A stretch of DNA of 20,774 nt from a virus: IMG/VR virus record IMGVR_UViG_3300003635_000031, positions 1 to 20,774 of that record. One strand, written 5' to 3'. Shown piece by piece: positions 2,795 to 9,415 of the stretch. Each line of letters opens with the position of its first letter. Within the stretch, counting starts at the first letter, position 1. The notes beneath the pieces were generated by a model. The model was not told the DNA's origin. It saw only the letters and a list, made by a program, of their open reading frames with translations, and made no database searches. The translations under genes and the position numbers were made by a program.

Positions 2795-4269
2795 TGGGCA
2801 TGTTAGATTTTTTCCGCAAGTCAAAGCCCGTTAGCAAGCGTCGTTATGACGCGGCATCGGTCGGGCGTCTGTTCTCAGACTTCAAGCCATTCCAGAAGTC
2901 AGCAGATGCAAACATTCGCCATGATCTTCTGACAATTCGCAATCGAGCGCGCGATCTTTCTCGCAATAACGAATACGCCAAGCGTTATCTTCGCTTACTG
3001 CGTCAGAACGTCGTAGGCGAACGTGGTGCTACATTGCAAGTCAAGGCGCTCGGTTTAGACAACCGTCTGGACGTGGCGGGTAATGACATCATCGAGACAG
3101 CATTTCGTGATTGGACTCGCAAGCAAAACTGTACAGTGACCGGCACGATGACATTCATCGATTGCCAGAATCTCTTTATCGAGTCTTTGGCGCGCGATGG
3201 TGAAGTGCTGATCCGCAAGGTGCGTACTCGTACTGAGCATGGATTCGCCATTCAGTTTCTTGAGCCAGATCATCTCGATGAGAAGAAGAATGAGCGCTTA
3301 CCCAACGGCAACTTCATTCGCATGGGCGTCGAGTATGACAAGTTCCGCCGTCCGGTCGCATATCACATTCTGACAGAGCACCCTGGTGACATTGAATATG
3401 CGTCTGCGACACGTCGCACTGAGCGAGTTCCGGCGGACAATATCTTACACATCTATGACCCTGATCGTGCAGAGCAGTCTCGCGGAGTGCCATGGTTTGC
3501 AACGGCACTGTCTGCATTAAAGATGCTTCACGGTTACCGCGAGGCTGAGTTGGTCGCTGCGCGGACGTCGGCGAGCAAGATGGGTTTCTTTACGTCACCA
3601 ACTGGCGATGGATTCACTGCTGATGATTTGGAAGATTCGATCGTGCCAATCATGGAAGCAGAGCCGGGAACATTCCATCAGTTGCCACAAGGCGTCAACT
3701 TCACACCTTGGGACCCTGCACACCCAACCACTGCGTTTGGCGACTTTGAGAAGTCAGTGCTTCGCGGTATCGCAGCGGGACTTGGCGTTTCATATCACTC
3801 GCTAGCGAACGATCTGACACAAACGAGCTACTCATCAATCCGCCAAGGAGCGATCGAGGATCGTGAGTTTTATAAGCAGATGCAGCGGTTCATGATTGAC
3901 CACTTCATCATGCCAATCTACGAGGAGTGGCTGAACTCAGCAATGACTTATGGCAAGGTGCAGATCCCGCTTCGCCGGTTTGACAAGTTCTTCAATGCAT
4001 CAATGTTCCAGCCACGCGGATTCTCATGGATTGATCCGCAGAAAGAGATCAACGCGCACGTTACTGCGTTGCAGAATGGCTTGATTTCGATGCAGGATGT
4101 CCAGAACAACTATGGACGCGATGTTGATGAGACGTTTGCTCAGATTGCGCGCGACAAGCAACTGGCGGAACAGTATGGATTGAAGATTGCATTTGAACCA
4201 TTTGGCGCGAACACCAACGCAGTCGATCCAGATATCACAGGAGAAGACGATGAGTTACAAGCCGACTGA
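2794..4269 (+). CDS. Portal protein, lambda gpB family
   Basis: The 491-residue protein forms the dodecameric ring at the capsid vertex through which DNA enters and leaves and to which the tail joins. The family pattern is visible throughout: an N-terminal helix with RDLSRNNEYAKRYLRLL (res 53-69), the QNVVGE turn after it, SLARDGEVLIRK (wing/stem start), FLEPDHLD, DNILHIYDPDRAEQSRGVPW, and the C-terminal FSWIDPQKE (410-418) followed by a helical crown region. Length matches lambda-type portals (about 500-530). It starts at an ATG overlapping the previous stop by one base and its end overlaps the next gene by 20 bases, so expression is translationally coupled. There is no fusion of a minor head protein. 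Confidence 0.96.
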   Translation: MGMLDFFRKSKPVSKRRYDAASVGRLFSDFKPFQKSADANIRHDLLTIRNRARDLSRNNEYAKRYLRLLRQNVVGERGATLQVKALGLDNRLDVAGNDIIETAFRDWTRKQNCTVTGTMTFIDCQNLFIESLARDGEVLIRKVRTRTEHGFAIQFLEPDHLDEKKNERLPNGNFIRMGVEYDKFRRPVAYHILTEHPGDIEYASATRRTERVPADNILHIYDPDRAEQSRGVPWFATALSALKMLHGYREAELVAARTSASKMGFFTSPTGDGFTADDLEDSIVPIMEAEPGTFHQLPQGVNFTPWDPAHPTTAFGDFEKSVLRGIAAGLGVSYHSLANDLTQTSYSSIRQGAIEDREFYKQMQRFMIDHFIMPIYEEWLNSAMTYGKVQIPLRRFDKFFNASMFQPRGFSWIDPQKEINAHVTALQNGLISMQDVQNNYGRDVDETFAQIARDKQLAEQYGLKIAFEPFGANTNAVDPDITGEDDELQAD

Positions 4270-7105
4270 GGGCATGGTTGAGGAGGCTGAACGTGGTCTT
4301 GAATGGCGCAGAGAATTTGGTCGTGGTGGCACAGAAGTTGGCATAGCTCGTGCTAGGGATATCTCGAATGGCGAAAACCTAAGCGAGAGCACCGTAAAGC
4401 GCATGTTTTCATTCTTCAGCCGTCACGAAGTGGATAAAGAGGCTGAAGGCTTCCGTCCTGGTGAAGATGGTTATCCGTCAAACGGTCGGATCGCTTGGGC
4501 TTTATGGGGCGGAGACGCAGGATTCTCTTGGTCACGTCAAATCACAGACCGGCTAAAGGCCGAGGAAGAGCGCATGGAAGAGCGTAACGACGCTGAGATA
4601 TCTGATGCAGTTGAAAAGAATCTGCGTAAACAGGTTGAAGAACATAACGAAGATGTCGGGAATGCCGAGTCTAAGCGCACGAACTACCGCACATTGGCGG
4701 CAGTATTCCGTCGTGGTGTTGGTGCTTACTACACCAATCCAGAGTCTGTTCGTCCTACGGTAAAGTCACCTGAGCAGTGGGCTTATGCGCGCGTATCTTC
4801 ATACCGTTATGCGCTTCGCAACGGCAAGTTCCGCAGTGGGAAGCATGACACGGATCTATTACCGGCGGGACATCCAATGTCTAGCAAGGAAAGATCAATG
4901 GAAGAGATGCGACCATATCCGAATGAGCATGCTGCTCGTATCAATGACCCCGCAAAGTATGACGAGTTCCGTCGTGAAAATGATGCTGGCGGAGCCGGTG
5001 TAGACTTTATCTATGGCATCTTTACTGAAAACGAAGAGCGCAAATCAGAGCTGCAGGCTATCCGATTTGACAAGGATCAGTATACAATGGAGCAAGCACG
5101 GGCTTGGTTGGATGAAAACAACTTCAGTCCGATTGAATTTGAAGAGGCTACAGGTGAGCGTATGGACAAGCGACATATTGTTTCTATCACAGAGACAGAT
5201 GACTCGTTCCTGATCGAGCTTGGCAAGAGCGAGATGTATGAGGGCGTCAACCTGATGCCTGAGCAAATCGAAGAAGCGGAAGGTGAAGAAGAGACTTCTG
5301 CGATGCCAGAGATGGAAACAGAGCGTCTAATGAAGAGCGAGAAGCTAACTCGCGCACAGCACATGGATGCCGAAGATGTTGATGATCGGCGTGTGCGGAT
5401 GTCAATTTCTTCTGAGGCGGCTGTAGAAAGGTCGTTTGGCGATGAAGTTTTAGACCATGGTGAAGGGTCGATTGATCTGTCATTCCTTCGCTCTGGCAAT
5501 GCGCCACTGCTTTTGGATCATGATCCAGAGAAGCAGATTGGCATTATTGAATCTGTCGAACTCGACGGCTCGGCACGGCGACTCCGTGCGACGGTGCGTT
5601 TTGCAACAAATGCACTTGCCAACGAGGTATATACAGATGTCAAAGATGGTATCCGTAAGAATGTATCGATCGGTTACCGGATTGACAAAATGGTTCGTGA
5701 TGATGATAACCCTACGGTTTATCGCGCAACATCATGGCGACCAATGGAGGCCAGTATTGTTGCCTTGCCAGCCGACGTGACTGTTGGGGTTGGGCGCAGC
5801 ATTGAATCCACCGAAGAACCTAAAGTTGAAACAGTTTCCATTACGGAGGTACGGACAATGGAACAGCAAAACGAACAGGTCCGCGATGACAATGTTGCGG
5901 CCTACAAAGAAGTGAGCGAGATCTTAGATATCGCTGCGAAGCACAACCAACGCGCCTTGGCTGACGAGTGTATCCGTAAGGGATATAACCTCGCTGAGTT
6001 CCGTGGCATGTTGCTTGAGAAGTTGGCGGACAAGCCACTTGAGCTTAACGATGTTGACATGACTCCAAAGGAAGAGCGCAAGTATTCTTTGATGCGCGCT
6101 ATCCGTGGCGTTGCAACTGGTAAGTTCGATGGTCTTGAGCGTGAAGTATCAGACGAACTTTCTCGTGTACATGGTAAAGACGCGCGTGGTTTCTATGTAC
6201 CACACAGCATCTTCAAGCGTGACATCCTGACTTCTTCACCAGCTAACGGATCAAACTTGGTCCCTGAAGACCACCTGGCTGATGAGTTCATCGATGCGCT
6301 TCGTGCGAATCTCGTGATCTCTGGATTGGGTGCTCGCATGATGTCTGGACTCAAGGGTGACGTTGCAATCCCTGCATTGAATGCAAAGACTTCTGTCGCA
6401 TTCGTTGCTGAGAACAACGCTCCATCTGAAGGTGCTCCAACATTCCGTCAGGTAACTATGACTCCTAAGACTTGCGTATCTTATGTAGATATCTCTCGCA
6501 AGTTGATGATGCAGTCTGATCCATCAGTTGAACAGATCTTGCGTCAGGACATGACTCAGCAATTCGCTTCTAAGATCGACGAAGTTGCGATCGAAGGCGG
6601 CGGCGCGAATGAGCCAACAGGTATCCTCGGTACTAACGGCATCGGTTCTGTTGCTATCGGTACTAACGGTGGCGCGATCACTTACGCTTCTCTGGTTGAC
6701 CTAGAGCGCGAAGTAGCGATCGACAACGCCTTGGCAGGAAACCTAAACTACCTGACCAACCCGAAGGTTGTCGCAGAAATGCGTCAAACTCCACGTCAGA
6801 CTTCAGGCGTTGAAGGCAACTTCATCCTGAACGATAGCAACACAGTATTGGGCTACAACGTAGCATCAACTACTTTAGTGCCATCTGACCTGACTAAGGG
6901 TACTTCATCTGGCGTGTGTTCAGCGGTTGTCTTCGGCAACTTTGCTGACCTCATGATCGGCATGTTCGGCGGATTGGATATCCTCGTTGATCCTTACACT
7001 GGTTCTTCAACTGGTGCTACTCGGATCGCGATGTACCAAGACATCGACGTGGCAGTACGCCATGCGGAATCTTTCGCGGCAATCAAGGACGTTACTACGT
7101 CCTAA
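4250..7105 (+). CDS. Fused accessory domains + HK97-type prohead protease + major capsid protein
   Basis: One 951-residue frame holds at least five parts. (1) res 4-94: a phage domain with KPTEGM, RGGTEVGIARARDIS, FFSRHEVDK and IAWALWGGD. (2) res ~125-212: a second recurrent phage domain (LRKQVEEHN, NYRTLAAVFRRGVGAY, FRSGKHDTDLLPAGHP). (3) res ~223-301: a domain with PNEHAARINDP and SELQAIRFDKD. (4) res ~382-517: HK97-type prohead protease with the catalytic His in LLLDHD (H424) and Ser in KNVSIGY (S473). (5) a charged helical delta/scaffold region and then the HK97-fold capsid (about 655-951). I chose ATG 4250, with AGGAGA 6 bases upstream, over an ATG 63 bases earlier that lacks support and lies deep in the portal gene. 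The protease should cut the delta region and mature the shell. An internal start at 5858 probably yields capsid protein alone. No separate scaffold or decoration gene is seen. Confidence 0.93.
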   Translation: MSYKPTEGMVEEAERGLEWRREFGRGGTEVGIARARDISNGENLSESTVKRMFSFFSRHEVDKEAEGFRPGEDGYPSNGRIAWALWGGDAGFSWSRQITDRLKAEEERMEERNDAEISDAVEKNLRKQVEEHNEDVGNAESKRTNYRTLAAVFRRGVGAYYTNPESVRPTVKSPEQWAYARVSSYRYALRNGKFRSGKHDTDLLPAGHPMSSKERSMEEMRPYPNEHAARINDPAKYDEFRRENDAGGAGVDFIYGIFTENEERKSELQAIRFDKDQYTMEQARAWLDENNFSPIEFEEATGERMDKRHIVSITETDDSFLIELGKSEMYEGVNLMPEQIEEAEGEEETSAMPEMETERLMKSEKLTRAQHMDAEDVDDRRVRMSISSEAAVERSFGDEVLDHGEGSIDLSFLRSGNAPLLLDHDPEKQIGIIESVELDGSARRLRATVRFATNALANEVYTDVKDGIRKNVSIGYRIDKMVRDDDNPTVYRATSWRPMEASIVALPADVTVGVGRSIESTEEPKVETVSITEVRTMEQQNEQVRDDNVAAYKEVSEILDIAAKHNQRALADECIRKGYNLAEFRGMLLEKLADKPLELNDVDMTPKEERKYSLMRAIRGVATGKFDGLEREVSDELSRVHGKDARGFYVPHSIFKRDILTSSPANGSNLVPEDHLADEFIDALRANLVISGLGARMMSGLKGDVAIPALNAKTSVAFVAENNAPSEGAPTFRQVTMTPKTCVSYVDISRKLMMQSDPSVEQILRQDMTQQFASKIDEVAIEGGGANEPTGILGTNGIGSVAIGTNGGAITYASLVDLEREVAIDNALAGNLNYLTNPKVVAEMRQTPRQTSGVEGNFILNDSNTVLGYNVASTTLVPSDLTKGTSSGVCSAVVFGNFADLMIGMFGGLDILVDPYTGSSTGATRIAMYQDIDVAVRHAESFAAIKDVTTS
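5845..5860 (+). promoter_or_regulatory. Internal ribosome binding site and ATG between protease and capsid domains
   Basis: GGAGGT (5845-5850) stands seven bases before an in-frame ATG (5858-5860). It falls in the linker right after the protease domain and before the capsid delta region, where a separate capsid gene would begin. Sequence and spacing are close to ideal, stronger than the site of the full-length frame at 4250. Confidence 0.75.
5858..7105 (+). CDS. Major capsid protein (HK97 fold), internal-start product
   Basis: Translation from the internal ATG gives a 415-residue protein of ordinary length for an HK97-type capsid precursor. The first ~100 residues are charged and helical (delta/scaffold domain). 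Then come the usual landmarks: ARGFYVP, NLVPEDHLADEFIDALR (N-arm), GLKGDVAIPAL, KLMMQSDPSVE, QFASKIDEVAIEGGG with ANEPTGIL (the classic loop before the A-domain) and IDVAVRHAESFAAI at the C-terminus. It would form the capsid shell, with hundreds of copies needed per virion against few protease copies, which explains a second, strong start. Capsid identity is certain; that this start is used in vivo is inferred from the ribosome site and domain border. Confidence 0.8.
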   Translation: MEQQNEQVRDDNVAAYKEVSEILDIAAKHNQRALADECIRKGYNLAEFRGMLLEKLADKPLELNDVDMTPKEERKYSLMRAIRGVATGKFDGLEREVSDELSRVHGKDARGFYVPHSIFKRDILTSSPANGSNLVPEDHLADEFIDALRANLVISGLGARMMSGLKGDVAIPALNAKTSVAFVAENNAPSEGAPTFRQVTMTPKTCVSYVDISRKLMMQSDPSVEQILRQDMTQQFASKIDEVAIEGGGANEPTGILGTNGIGSVAIGTNGGAITYASLVDLEREVAIDNALAGNLNYLTNPKVVAEMRQTPRQTSGVEGNFILNDSNTVLGYNVASTTLVPSDLTKGTSSGVCSAVVFGNFADLMIGMFGGLDILVDPYTGSSTGATRIAMYQDIDVAVRHAESFAAIKDVTTS

Positions 7106-7110
7106 TGATA

Positions 7111-7138
7111 AAGAAGGGGGCTTCGGCCCCCTTTTTTT
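7111..7138 (+). terminator. Rho-independent terminator with UUCG tetraloop after the capsid gene
   Basis: A perfect 6-bp stem GGGGGC (7116-7121) / GCCCCC (7126-7131) closes a TTCG loop and is followed by seven T (7132-7138). Flanking A residues (7111-7115) can pair with the T run. The capsid stop is at 7103-7105. The next gene's ATG starts at 7139, directly after the last T. It probably reduces transcription of downstream genes relative to capsid. Confidence 0.93.
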
Positions 7139-7672
7139 ATGCAAAAGATAGAGCACTACAAGAATTATCACGAAGGGGAAACATGCGCCGTTTTATGTGG
7201 CGGACCATCACTTCCTTTGGACTTACGCAATCTACCCGAAGAAGTGGACGTTCTGATTGGCGTAAATCAACACAGCTTGATTCTTCCATGCGATTACATT
7301 GTCTTCAGTGATCGTCACATGTGGCCTTTGATTGAATCTATCAAGGACTGCAAATACATTACTCATCTAAATAAGTTTGATACCAGTAGAACAATTCACG
7401 CTAGCATTTGGCCTTCGATGGGCTATTCCGGTCAGCGCGCTATTTACGCAGCAGATTACATGGGCTTTGAAAAAGTGTATGTTTGCGGCATGAATCAATA
7501 TGACCAGAATGAAAAACGGGAGTATTGGTGGGAAGGTCCGCAGTGCAAAGAGATGCAAAAGCATACACATTGCAAAGCCGATCTTGGCAGAGTTAAAGAG
7601 TTTGTTGATTCATTGAATCACCCTGAACGCATTTATTTTGTATCTGGACAGTTGAAGGAGATACACCAATGA
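7139..7672 (+). CDS. DUF115/MptE-like Rossmann protein, putative glycosyltransferase
   Basis: The 177-residue protein has a nucleotide-sugar or pterin-diphosphate type Rossmann pattern: a first strand ending in CAVLCGGPSLPLDL (res 16-29, GGPSL loop), a VLIGVNQ strand (38-44), CDYIVFSDRH (51-60), and YSGQRAIYAADYMGFEKVYVCGM (from 96), the SGQ helix plus strand common in DUF115/MAF_flag10-like and related sialyltransferase-like proteins. It is short for that group and lacks other domains. The only possible start is ATG 7139, directly abutting the terminator T run, with no ribosome site in the usual window. It is the first of three sugar-related genes placed between capsid and head-tail joining genes. 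The 3' end overlaps the next gene (ATGA). Substrate and acceptor are unknown; virion glycosylation is a guess from context. Confidence 0.7.
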   Translation: MQKIEHYKNYHEGETCAVLCGGPSLPLDLRNLPEEVDVLIGVNQHSLILPCDYIVFSDRHMWPLIESIKDCKYITHLNKFDTSRTIHASIWPSMGYSGQRAIYAADYMGFEKVYVCGMNQYDQNEKREYWWEGPQCKEMQKHTHCKADLGRVKEFVDSLNHPERIYFVSGQLKEIHQ

Positions 7673-7899
7673 GAGTCGAACTAACCCGTGGAATCATTTG
7701 GGATAAATTGGCCCGTGACCCCGGAACAGTATTAGAAGTCAGCGAAGTAGATGGATTCACCTTAATCGACAAGGGGAAAGCGCGCCTATATAAGGACCCT
7801 GTTTTCGAGACTACAAATCGCTCTGTCGGTCTTGAGAACAGCGCACCAGAGCAGAAAGTAACGAAGCGTCGTACATATAAGAAGAAGACGACACAGTGA
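7669..7899 (+). CDS. Small basic-tailed phage protein, unknown function
   Basis: A 76-residue protein with a compact beta-rich N-terminus (MRVELTRGIIWD, PGTVLEVSEVDGFTLIDKGKARLY, res ~18-41) and a basic, Lys/Arg/Thr-rich tail (64-75). The pattern of a Val-rich strand followed by LIxxGKA is common in short proteins found next to capsid genes of siphoviruses, sometimes in the place of lambda FI, but I cannot assign a function. AAGGAGA (7655-7661) gives a good ribosome site and the start overlaps the preceding stop (ATGA). The stop overlaps the next start (GTGA). It may be an original head gene now embedded in the glycosyltransferase insert. Confidence 0.75.
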   Translation: MRVELTRGIIWDKLARDPGTVLEVSEVDGFTLIDKGKARLYKDPVFETTNRSVGLENSAPEQKVTKRRTYKKKTTQ

Positions 7900-8486
7900 A
7901 GTTTGCGACTGTTCTTCGTGGCGGTCGAGAATACACTACGGAGCATGTACACAAGTTGCGCGACATGGTGCAACAACATGCTCCTGATATGGATTTCGTT
8001 TGCCTGACTGACTCTTCGCCACAATGCAATCGCATTGCCTTGACCAAGAACTATCCTGGTTGGTGGGCAAAGATGGAACTGTTTAGGCTTCAAGGTCCTG
8101 TGCTTTACATGGACTTAGACACCATCATCTGCGGAGACATGTCACGCTGGCTTGATCAGATTAAACATAGCAAATTTGCTATATTGCGTGACGTGTATCG
8201 AGACAAACGAGATCCGCATGCCATGCAGTCATCCATCATGTACTGGTCTGGCGACATGTCAGAGATATGGGATGATTTTTCATCAAGGCCCGACTTCTCG
8301 CACCCAAATGGCGATCAAGGTTGGCTAGAGCAGCATCTTGGCGATGTGGCTTACATACAAGACTTTACTGATGATGTTGTCTCATATAAGGCACAAATCA
8401 AGAACGGCTATCCCATAGCGGATGCGAGTGTAATCTTCTTTCATGGCAAGCCAAGACCATGGGAACAAAAAGATGTCCCTTACTGA
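7896..8486 (+). CDS. GT8-like (GT-A fold) glycosyltransferase
   Basis: This 196-residue protein should transfer a sugar from a nucleotide-sugar donor. It shows the GT-A hallmarks: N-terminal strand MKFATVLRGG, VCLTDS (35-40), the WWAKMELFRL helix (56-65) leading to VLYMDLDT with a DxD metal site (D73, D75), GDQGWLEQ (139-146), resembling the DQD segment, and the C-terminal FFHGKPRPW (181-189), matching the HxGxxKPW type metal/donor motif of family GT8. It starts with GTG overlapping the preceding TGA (GTGA). All catalytic motifs are present, so it looks functional. Its 3' end overlaps the next glycosyltransferase by 14 bases. The acceptor could be a virion protein, a host surface glycan or phage DNA; the sequence does not say which. 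Confidence 0.85.
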   Translation: MKFATVLRGGREYTTEHVHKLRDMVQQHAPDMDFVCLTDSSPQCNRIALTKNYPGWWAKMELFRLQGPVLYMDLDTIICGDMSRWLDQIKHSKFAILRDVYRDKRDPHAMQSSIMYWSGDMSEIWDDFSSRPDFSHPNGDQGWLEQHLGDVAYIQDFTDDVVSYKAQIKNGYPIADASVIFFHGKPRPWEQKDVPY

Positions 8487-9123
8487 TCGAAACATGATCC
8501 ACATCTGGATCGGCCCAAAGCCACAACCAATGAAATGGATGGAGACGTGGCGATTAAAGCATCCTGAGTGGAAATACTTTGTCTACACAGATGCCATGTA
8601 CCGATGCCGAACCTGGAAGAATCATCACTTGATGAAGCATTACTATGACCAAGGAAAGTTCAATGGCGTTGCAGATCTAATGAGGTATGAGCTGCTTTAT
8701 GAGATGGGCGGGTTTGTTCCGCCAGCCGATTCTATCTGTCATCACCCGATTGATGAGTTGCTAACAGAAGATGAACATTTTTGTTATGGCGTTTACGAGA
8801 ATGAGCGACTGAGACCGGGGCTAGTCTCTCCGATCTATGCGGCAAACAAGGAGAACAAGTTTGTTGGCATGCTCATTGATAAATTGCATCAGCTTAGTCC
8901 AAGTGATCTGAATCCATCACCTTGGCGATCAACCGGCAATCTGTTTATTAAGAACATGATCGAGACACATGAGCCGGACATCAAAATCTGGCCTTCGCAC
9001 TATTTCATACCCAAACATCACGATCCATCGTCATCGCGCTATAATGGCCCAGACAGAATTTATGCTGATCAGATGTGGGGTTCCACGCCTGGCGGAAACG
9101 ACTACGAAAGCGGAAGGAAATAA
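8473..9123 (+). CDS. GT32-like (Och1-type) glycosyltransferase with altered DXD motif
   Basis: The 216-residue protein carries the sugar-binding DXD region pattern of family GT32: IHIWIGPKP (9-17) at the N-terminus, WRLKHPEWKYFVYTD (26-40), and ADLMRYELLYEMGG (67-80), the usual lead-in to GG-x-Y-x-D-x-D. Here the motif reads GGFVPPADS (79-87), so the first Asp is replaced by Pro while the second (D86) is kept. The C-terminal part (NLFIKNMIETHEPDIKIWP) fits the family. The start at 8473 overlaps the preceding gene; ATG 8494 is an alternative and neither has a strong ribosome site. It may be weakly active, metal-independent, or rely on another acidic residue. It closes the sugar cassette; its end holds the ribosome site of the gpFII-like gene. 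Confidence 0.78.
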   Translation: MSLTDRNMIHIWIGPKPQPMKWMETWRLKHPEWKYFVYTDAMYRCRTWKNHHLMKHYYDQGKFNGVADLMRYELLYEMGGFVPPADSICHHPIDELLTEDEHFCYGVYENERLRPGLVSPIYAANKENKFVGMLIDKLHQLSPSDLNPSPWRSTGNLFIKNMIETHEPDIKIWPSHYFIPKHHDPSSSRYNGPDRIYADQMWGSTPGGNDYESGRK

Positions 9124-9124
9124 C

Positions 9125-9415
9125 ATGGCCTTTGTAGAGACAGCAGATGACCTAACTATCTTTTTTGCCGATGCTGATTCAGCAACGATTGATGGAGTCA
9201 CAGTGAAGGGTCATTTCGAGAATGAGCACGATCCAGTGAATGCAGGCGGCATGGTTGAGTTTTCAATTCAGTCTGCCACGTTTACATGCAAGACATCGGA
9301 TGTCACCGGTATTGCCGAAGGCTCGCTCATCACCATCAACGGATCAAGCTACGCAGTAACCGATTTACAGCCGGATGGAACTGGCGTAACAATGTTGATA
9401 TTAGAGGCGCAGTAA
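9125..9415 (+). CDS. Head-tail joining protein, gpFII-like
   Basis: The 96-residue protein resembles lambda gpFII, which binds the portal-gpW ring and offers the tail a docking surface. Shared order: an acidic start, GVTVKGHFENEHDPV (aligned with lambda GVFDDPE), an exposed loop with EFSIQSATFTCKTSDV (lambda PSLFVRTDEV), then EGSLITINGSSYAVTDLQPDGTG (lambda RGDTLTIGEENFWVDRVSPDDGG). The start ATG 9125 has AAGGA about 7 bases upstream; an earlier in-frame ATG at 8969 lies inside the GT32 gene and is rejected. TAATG overlap with the next gene. Position after the head genes and before tail genes agrees. Slightly shorter than lambda's 117 residues. Confidence 0.78.
   Translation: MAFVETADDLTIFFADADSATIDGVTVKGHFENEHDPVNAGGMVEFSIQSATFTCKTSDVTGIAEGSLITINGSSYAVTDLQPDGTGVTMLILEAQ

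Follow-up and report, generated by a model that had tools for sequence, protein, structure and literature searches.

A putative virion glycosylation cassette with exchangeable outer enzymes beside the capsid gene of a lambda/HK97-type siphophage

The capsid and tail tube of mycobacteriophages Che8, Corndog and Myrna are glycosylated by the phages' own enzymes (Freeman et al. 2023, as related in PMC12363180 and PMC11256854). The cassette described here, found in a 20,774-base virus record (the window), is similar in that phage-encoded glycosyltransferases have the phage's own structural proteins as their proposed targets. In the mycobacteriophages the glycans themselves were seen; for the window cassette they are predicted. 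It also differs in that an enzyme with a predicted GT42 fold (g1) forms a core linked to the capsid gene, around which the outer enzymes change. That phage enzymes can glycosylate virions is already known; what this variant appears to add is the capsid-linked GT42-fold core with its exchangeable outer enzymes. A second comparison is offered by the Maf flagellin glycosyltransferase, whose domain (PF01973) has a CstII-like structure and O-glycosylates flagellin (PMC11339370). Like Maf, g1 has a CstII-like predicted fold, and its gene is linked to genes of a repetitive surface assembly; unlike Maf, g1 is only 177 aa long, lacks the additional domains of Maf and falls short of the curated PF01973 cut-off (18.7 vs 34.6 bits). 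In phage P1, the pmgO-pmgP-ppp-pmgQ genes resemble the cassette in that DUF115-like genes adjoin a GT8 gene whose product, PmgQ, is a homologue of g3 (34% identity), but they do not lie beside the capsid gene. Under laboratory conditions P1 does not need pmgO, pmgP or pmgQ (PMC10695390). CRP-822-type roseophages (PMC12629253) share the head gene order of the window and have capsids 41–45% identical to its own, but the two isolates that we examined, CRP-811 and CRP-831, carry only small genes at the site and neither g1 nor g3. The map legend of that article includes 'GLY' for glycosyltransferase, and we found no analysis of it. Our search of the open-access literature turned up neither an account of a GT42-fold core that is linked to the capsid and followed by an exchangeable GT8/GT32/FkbM tail, nor one that connects it with P1 pmgO/P/Q.

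The window carries the late gene set of an aquatic siphophage of the lambda/HK97 type: terL, a head-tail joining protein, the portal, a protease-capsid fusion (MCP), a gpFII-like Hc1 protein, the tail terminator, the tail tube, the tape measure, minor tail proteins, a J-like central fibre and a tail-fibre-like protein. One other contig (L002) is nearly identical to it, over 11,705 bases at 99.97%. The cassette lies in a variable site whose right border is the Hc1 (Phage_attach/Hc1) gene (Table 1). The three parts of MCP all lie in a single frame of about 951 aa, matched by PF05065 (E 1e-38), PF04586 (E 2e-10), phrog_617 (E 4e-141), NF045541 (protease/capsid fusion) and TIGR01554, and MCP is the gene that g1 travels with.

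Table 1. Features of the variable site and its borders in the window
Feature	Position	Strand	Description
MCP capsid gene	4250..7105	+	phrog_2859-like N-terminal part, S78 prohead protease and HK97-type capsid
Intrinsic terminator	7116..7138	+	GGGGGC-TTCG-GCCCCC-T7, between the MCP stop and the g1 start
g1	7139..7672	+	DUF115/MptE-like, GT42 (CstII)-like predicted fold; proposed initiating glycosyltransferase
g2	7669..7899	+	Small basic protein resident at the site; weak DUF7210/DUF7302, phrog_2616
g3	7896..8486	+	GT8-family glycosyltransferase, P1 PmgQ homologue; proposed extending enzyme
g4	8473..9123	+	GT32-type (Gly_transf_sug), altered DxD (PPADS); proposed capping enzyme
Hc1 / gpFII-like head-tail attachment protein	9125..9415	+	PF05354 E 4e-15, phrog_82 E 3e-18

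A preliminary description of this DNA had reported four packed ORFs, three of them sugar-type enzymes inside the head operon, with a GC content below that of the capsid gene. The packing is borne out by the sequence: g1 and g2 overlap by ATGA (7669–7672), g2 and g3 by GTGA (7896–7899), and g4 starts with an ATG at 8473, in a 14-nt overlap with g3, and stops at 9121–9123. The description had overlooked the terminator at 7116–7138, which lies between the MCP stop codon (TAA, 7103–7105) and the ATG of g1 at 7139. The three enzymes are upheld by the family and fold matches given below. The GC dip is real yet small, and most marked in g1 (42.4% in g1, 47.4% in g2, 46.9% in g3 and 46.2% in g4, against 49.9% in MCP and 51.7% in the tail tube gene). 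The dN/dS values of g1 (0.05–0.12) and g3 (0.10–0.13) indicate purifying selection, and because their motifs are also conserved, we regard both as real genes.

The match of g1 to the MptE-like family PF01973 (E 0.0015) is the one below the cut-off mentioned above, and its sequence match to GT42 is weak (E 0.02). The preliminary description had suggested comparing predicted structures. The AlphaFold model of g1 (pLDDT 86) has CstII (1ro8) as its best match by TM-score (TMq 0.62; Foldseek E 2.6e-4), and it also matches SteA, CstI, human ST6GALNAC2, MptE and thiamin pyrophosphokinase. In a profile alignment, the invariant Y121 and Y129 of g1 align with Y156/Y162 of CstII, which are phosphate-binding residues, and the invariant N43 aligns with N31. 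A histidine is present in the linker after these tyrosines in 25 of 29 sequences, where the catalytic histidine of CstII (H188) stands. The profile link between g1 and PmgO/PmgP is no more than suggestive (hhalign probability 52%, P 1.5e-4). A search with g1 against cultured phages gave no match. From the structural model, g1 is probably a minimal CstII/Maf-like (GT42-fold) enzyme and the proposed initiator. In P1 (L164, 3144–4330), pmgO and pmgP are themselves DUF115/sialyltransferase-like (phrog_4603, weak PF01973), and pmgQ, the GT8 gene, belongs to the same late region.

The second enzyme, g3, matches phrog_1962 ('glycosyltransferase') with E 7e-39 and, in a profile search of the PDB, GT8 enzymes with E 9e-7; a Pfam scan gave no hit for it. 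Its model (pLDDT 95) has a GT8 fold and matches glycogenin, Skp1 galactosyltransferase and LgtC in Foldseek (E 1e-7 to 1e-8). The motifs D73-L-D75, GDQ (139–141) and HG-P-PW (183–189) are invariant in 23 sequences, and K185 is present in 18 of them; g3 thus has both the metal-binding DxD and the C-terminal HGxKPW-type motif of GT8 (GT-A, retaining) enzymes. The g3 family, which is wider than that of g1, is labelled 'moron' in PHROGs and given a 'putative morphogenetic function' in the P1 annotation. In freshwater-type phages, a homologous GT8+FkbM pair lies between terL and the portal gene, with terL upstream in 107 of 116 and the portal downstream in 105 of 107 such loci (some contigs counted twice).

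The last enzyme, g4, passes the curated cut-off of PF04488 (Gly_transf_sug; 28.1 bits vs 23.0), while a sequence search of the PDB with g4 gave nothing meaningful. It is without a canonical DxD, as the first aspartate is lost (GGFVPPADS); a more distant homologue has GGITLDVDS. By locus, the site reads PPADS in the window and PPADA in L176, and is kept as DVDS in L169. Besides the window's twin, relatives of g4 were found at one distinct viral locus and in two records of one spring phage. The position of g4 is filled differently across relatives: 14 of the 22 lineages that bear g3 have an FkbM methyltransferase there, and the other sets consist of a methyltransferase with a second GT8-like gene, a TupA-like ATP-grasp, a polysaccharide pyruvyltransferase, a radical SAM protein with a GT2, a second DUF115-like gene (L088, recognized by its GPS motif, with no Pfam match) and, in the window, the GT32. 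In the largest version of the cassette that we saw (L190, 7390–9676), two GT8 genes are followed by a methyltransferase-like ORF, a radical SAM/SPASM protein and a GT2. L176, a phage contig on which UvsX/UvsW-like ORFs occur, contains a large sugar cluster at 3081–8239, which includes an epimerase, a GT8, a methyltransferase, a GT8–GT32 pair like g3–g4 and a GT25. This cluster suggests that the g3–g4 pair moves between unrelated phages.

The small basic protein g2 had been counted as part of the cassette. Nearly all relatives have it at this position, whether they carry sugar enzymes or not, and we have rejected it as a cassette member; Pfam and PHROG profile searches gave no enzyme match of any kind for it.

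We then compared the site among relatives having the same capsid and gpFII, as the preliminary description had proposed. The capsid-related viral contigs that read through the site carry g2 only, g1+g2, g1+g2+g3, or these three with further enzymes, so that g2-only, g1-only and full versions were all found. When 71 distinct capsids are placed on a tree (quick maximum likelihood, no bootstrap), whose lineages are not independent of one another, the enzyme content proves to be nested: 22 lineages have none, 27 have g1, and 22 have g1+g3. g3 always occurs with g1 (22/22 lineages) and never without it. The minimum number of changes on this tree is 4 for g1, 6 for g3 and 10 for the last enzyme, and the nesting may partly be a product of shared ancestry.

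Cassettes are exchanged at gene borders between close relatives. The window and L003 have capsid proteins that are 99% identical, and their DNA is 95.6% identical up to 7141 and 94% from 9125. Inside the site, identity is 92% and 86% for the DNA of g1 and g2 and 51% for the g3 protein; in L003 the last gene is different and an ATP-grasp gene is added. In L006, DNA similarity to the window extends to 8484 and resumes at 9114, and g4 alone (8485–9113) is replaced, by an FkbM gene. The cassette had been taken for a later insertion. This fits g3 and g4 better; g1 on the other hand is old in the family, as its most distant copies here are about 35% identical.

A search with g1 alone found 80 viral loci. 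Among those with enough flanking sequence, a capsid gene lies upstream within 1.6 kb in 74 of 76, g2 lies directly downstream in all 71, and Hc1 is downstream in 52 of 53. Bacterial genomes yielded 8 loci. In three contigs of Chloroflexi/Armatimonadetes MAGs (L236, L237 and L238), which have a different head cluster, a g1 homologue lies between large-terminase-like and portal-like ORFs, roles that we assign by the sequence and the order of the ORFs. A MAG contig of 582 kb with the label Akkermansiaceae (L235, 2458–11567) contains a phage relative with the same g1–g2–g3 site. Its portal, capsid and g1 frames are broken, and it may be a prophage remnant or reflect sequencing error or misbinning.

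In the RNA, the terminator between MCP and g1 reads GGGGGC-UUCG-GCCCCC-U7, and its last base directly precedes the g1 start codon. A GC-rich hairpin follows MCP in 76 of 77 distinct loci, where about one is expected in shuffled sequences. The hairpin is followed by a T-run in 51 of 56 loci with g1 vs 4 of 21 without it, a correlation that rests on 3–4 independent contrasts and cannot reach significance. We infer from the sequence that this hairpin is a partial terminator, which would lower enzyme expression relative to that of the capsid. The preliminary description had the enzymes expressed with the late genes: they do lie in the head operon, but the capsid gene is split from g1 by a strong hairpin and its T7 run. 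As the g1 start codon follows the T-run immediately, there is no room for a ribosome-binding site, and the same is seen in about half of the relatives having g1. In L070 (8673–9611) and L071 (8415–9353), a gene lies between the capsid gene and g1 whose 312-aa product has an HTH domain and a calcineurin-like phosphoesterase domain, and other freshwater relatives have 0.3–1.2 kb without a clear gene there.

On balance, these sequences argue that the cassette is probably a modular system for the glycosylation of a virion protein, with g1 as its capsid-linked core and g3 and g4 as extension and cap. We infer the donor sugars, the acceptor protein, the order of the steps, the expression level and the benefit as follows. 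g1 would transfer a first sugar, from a host-made nucleotide sugar, onto a Ser/Thr residue of a head (or tail-tube) protein. g3 would then add a second sugar and g4 a third, while in sister phages the last step would instead be methylation by FkbM, pyruvylation or another transfer. Near-identical phages would thereby come to display different surface sugars. Because of the hairpin-terminator 3' of the capsid gene, there would be little enzyme compared to capsid, and the benefit may lie in varying the particle surface or in protecting the particle.

The virion-directed reading is based on the ties of g1 to the capsid gene and to g2, on its place in the head clusters of other phages as well, on the homologous GT8+FkbM pair between terL and portal in freshwater phages, on the GT42-like fold of g1 with its CstII-aligned invariant Tyr and Asn residues together with the GT8 fold and motifs of g3, and on the mycobacteriophage precedent of capsid and tail-tube glycosylation. 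An initiating role for g1 is suggested by the fold that it shares with the flagellin-glycosylating catalytic domain of Maf, an ordered pathway by the nested presence of g1, g3 and the last enzyme, and the building of a glycan by the tailoring types (FkbM, pyruvyltransferase, GT2, GT32) among the last enzymes. Virion proteins had already been named as acceptors in the preliminary description. In view of the linkage of g1 to head genes, this is the most economical reading, but no acceptor site emerged from the sequences: when lineages with and without g1 were compared at the conserved S/T/N/Y columns of the portal, MCP, g2, Hc1, the tail terminator and the tail tube, no MCP or portal column followed both losses of g1. 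Tail-tube columns 96 and 105 do so (2 of 18 conserved S/T columns vs 1 of 47 others), a weak, post-hoc lead.

More tentatively, this may be one case of a widespread capsid-linked module, in which an enzyme of GT42 fold, passed on together with the capsid gene, would start an O-glycan, rapidly exchanged GT8/GT32/FkbM/pyruvyl enzymes would build phage-specific caps and so create a serotype-like variable surface, and P1 pmgO/pmgP/pmgQ would be a distant version. If so, variable particle sugars would be no speciality of mycobacteriophages but common, modular and fast-evolving in aquatic tailed phages, with consequences for phage adsorption, grazing and antibody recognition. It would also provide a hypothesis for three P1 genes of unknown function, pmgO, pmgP and pmgQ.

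Alternatively, the target of the enzymes might be the LPS or some other surface glycan of the host, altered late in infection, and the place beside the capsid gene would be a tolerated insertion hotspot. The altered receptor would keep progeny from being lost on debris, or would exclude competitors. The families FkbM, GT32 and pyruvyltransferase are indeed characteristic of surface polysaccharide loci, a g3 homologue in Chlobot is a stand-alone, moron-like gene adjoining the tail fibre gene, and the related GT8–GT32 pair of the unrelated phage L176 shares its larger sugar cluster with a GT25, an LPS-type family. We nevertheless consider this explanation unlikely: hardly any copy of g1 turned up at a distance from head genes, and both g1 and the GT8+FkbM pair occur in the head clusters of several unrelated phages. 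Furthermore, an integrase was not found in 8 near-complete relatives, and therefore lasting lysogenic conversion is not expected. As for a gtrABC O-antigen moron, Pfam searches of the window cassette and of the cassette genes of several relatives found no GtrA flippase or GtrB bactoprenol glucosyltransferase.

A different possibility concerns g1, whose sialyltransferase-like Rossmann fold could belong to a protein that assembles the head or binds nucleotides, with g3 and g4 as unrelated passengers. Its fold family does include non-transferases such as MptE, SteA and thiamin pyrophosphokinase, and in the 27 lineages without g3 it stands directly before g2. However, g1 is dispensable for assembly, since it is missing from 22 capsid lineages, including L022, which is close to the g1-bearing L019. 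The invariance of the CstII-aligned Tyr and Asn, and the pairing of DUF115-like genes with a g3 homologue in P1, phiNP and JK004, also speak against such a role, which we regard as improbable.

Phage glycosyltransferases that modify DNA are well known from T4-like phages, and a close relative of the window, L006, has a C5-cytosine methyltransferase; it is nonetheless very improbable that the enzymes glycosylate modified phage DNA bases to shield them from restriction, as they are linked to head genes and not to replication genes, and searches for thymidylate-synthase-type PF00303 (0/10 related records, control positive), TET/JBP-type PF12851 (0/20, control likewise silent) and C5-methyltransferase (1/20) gave DNA hypermodification no support. 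The C5-cytosine methyltransferase gene of L006, the single case among these 20 related or comparison records, lies in its early region (L165, 4716–5786).
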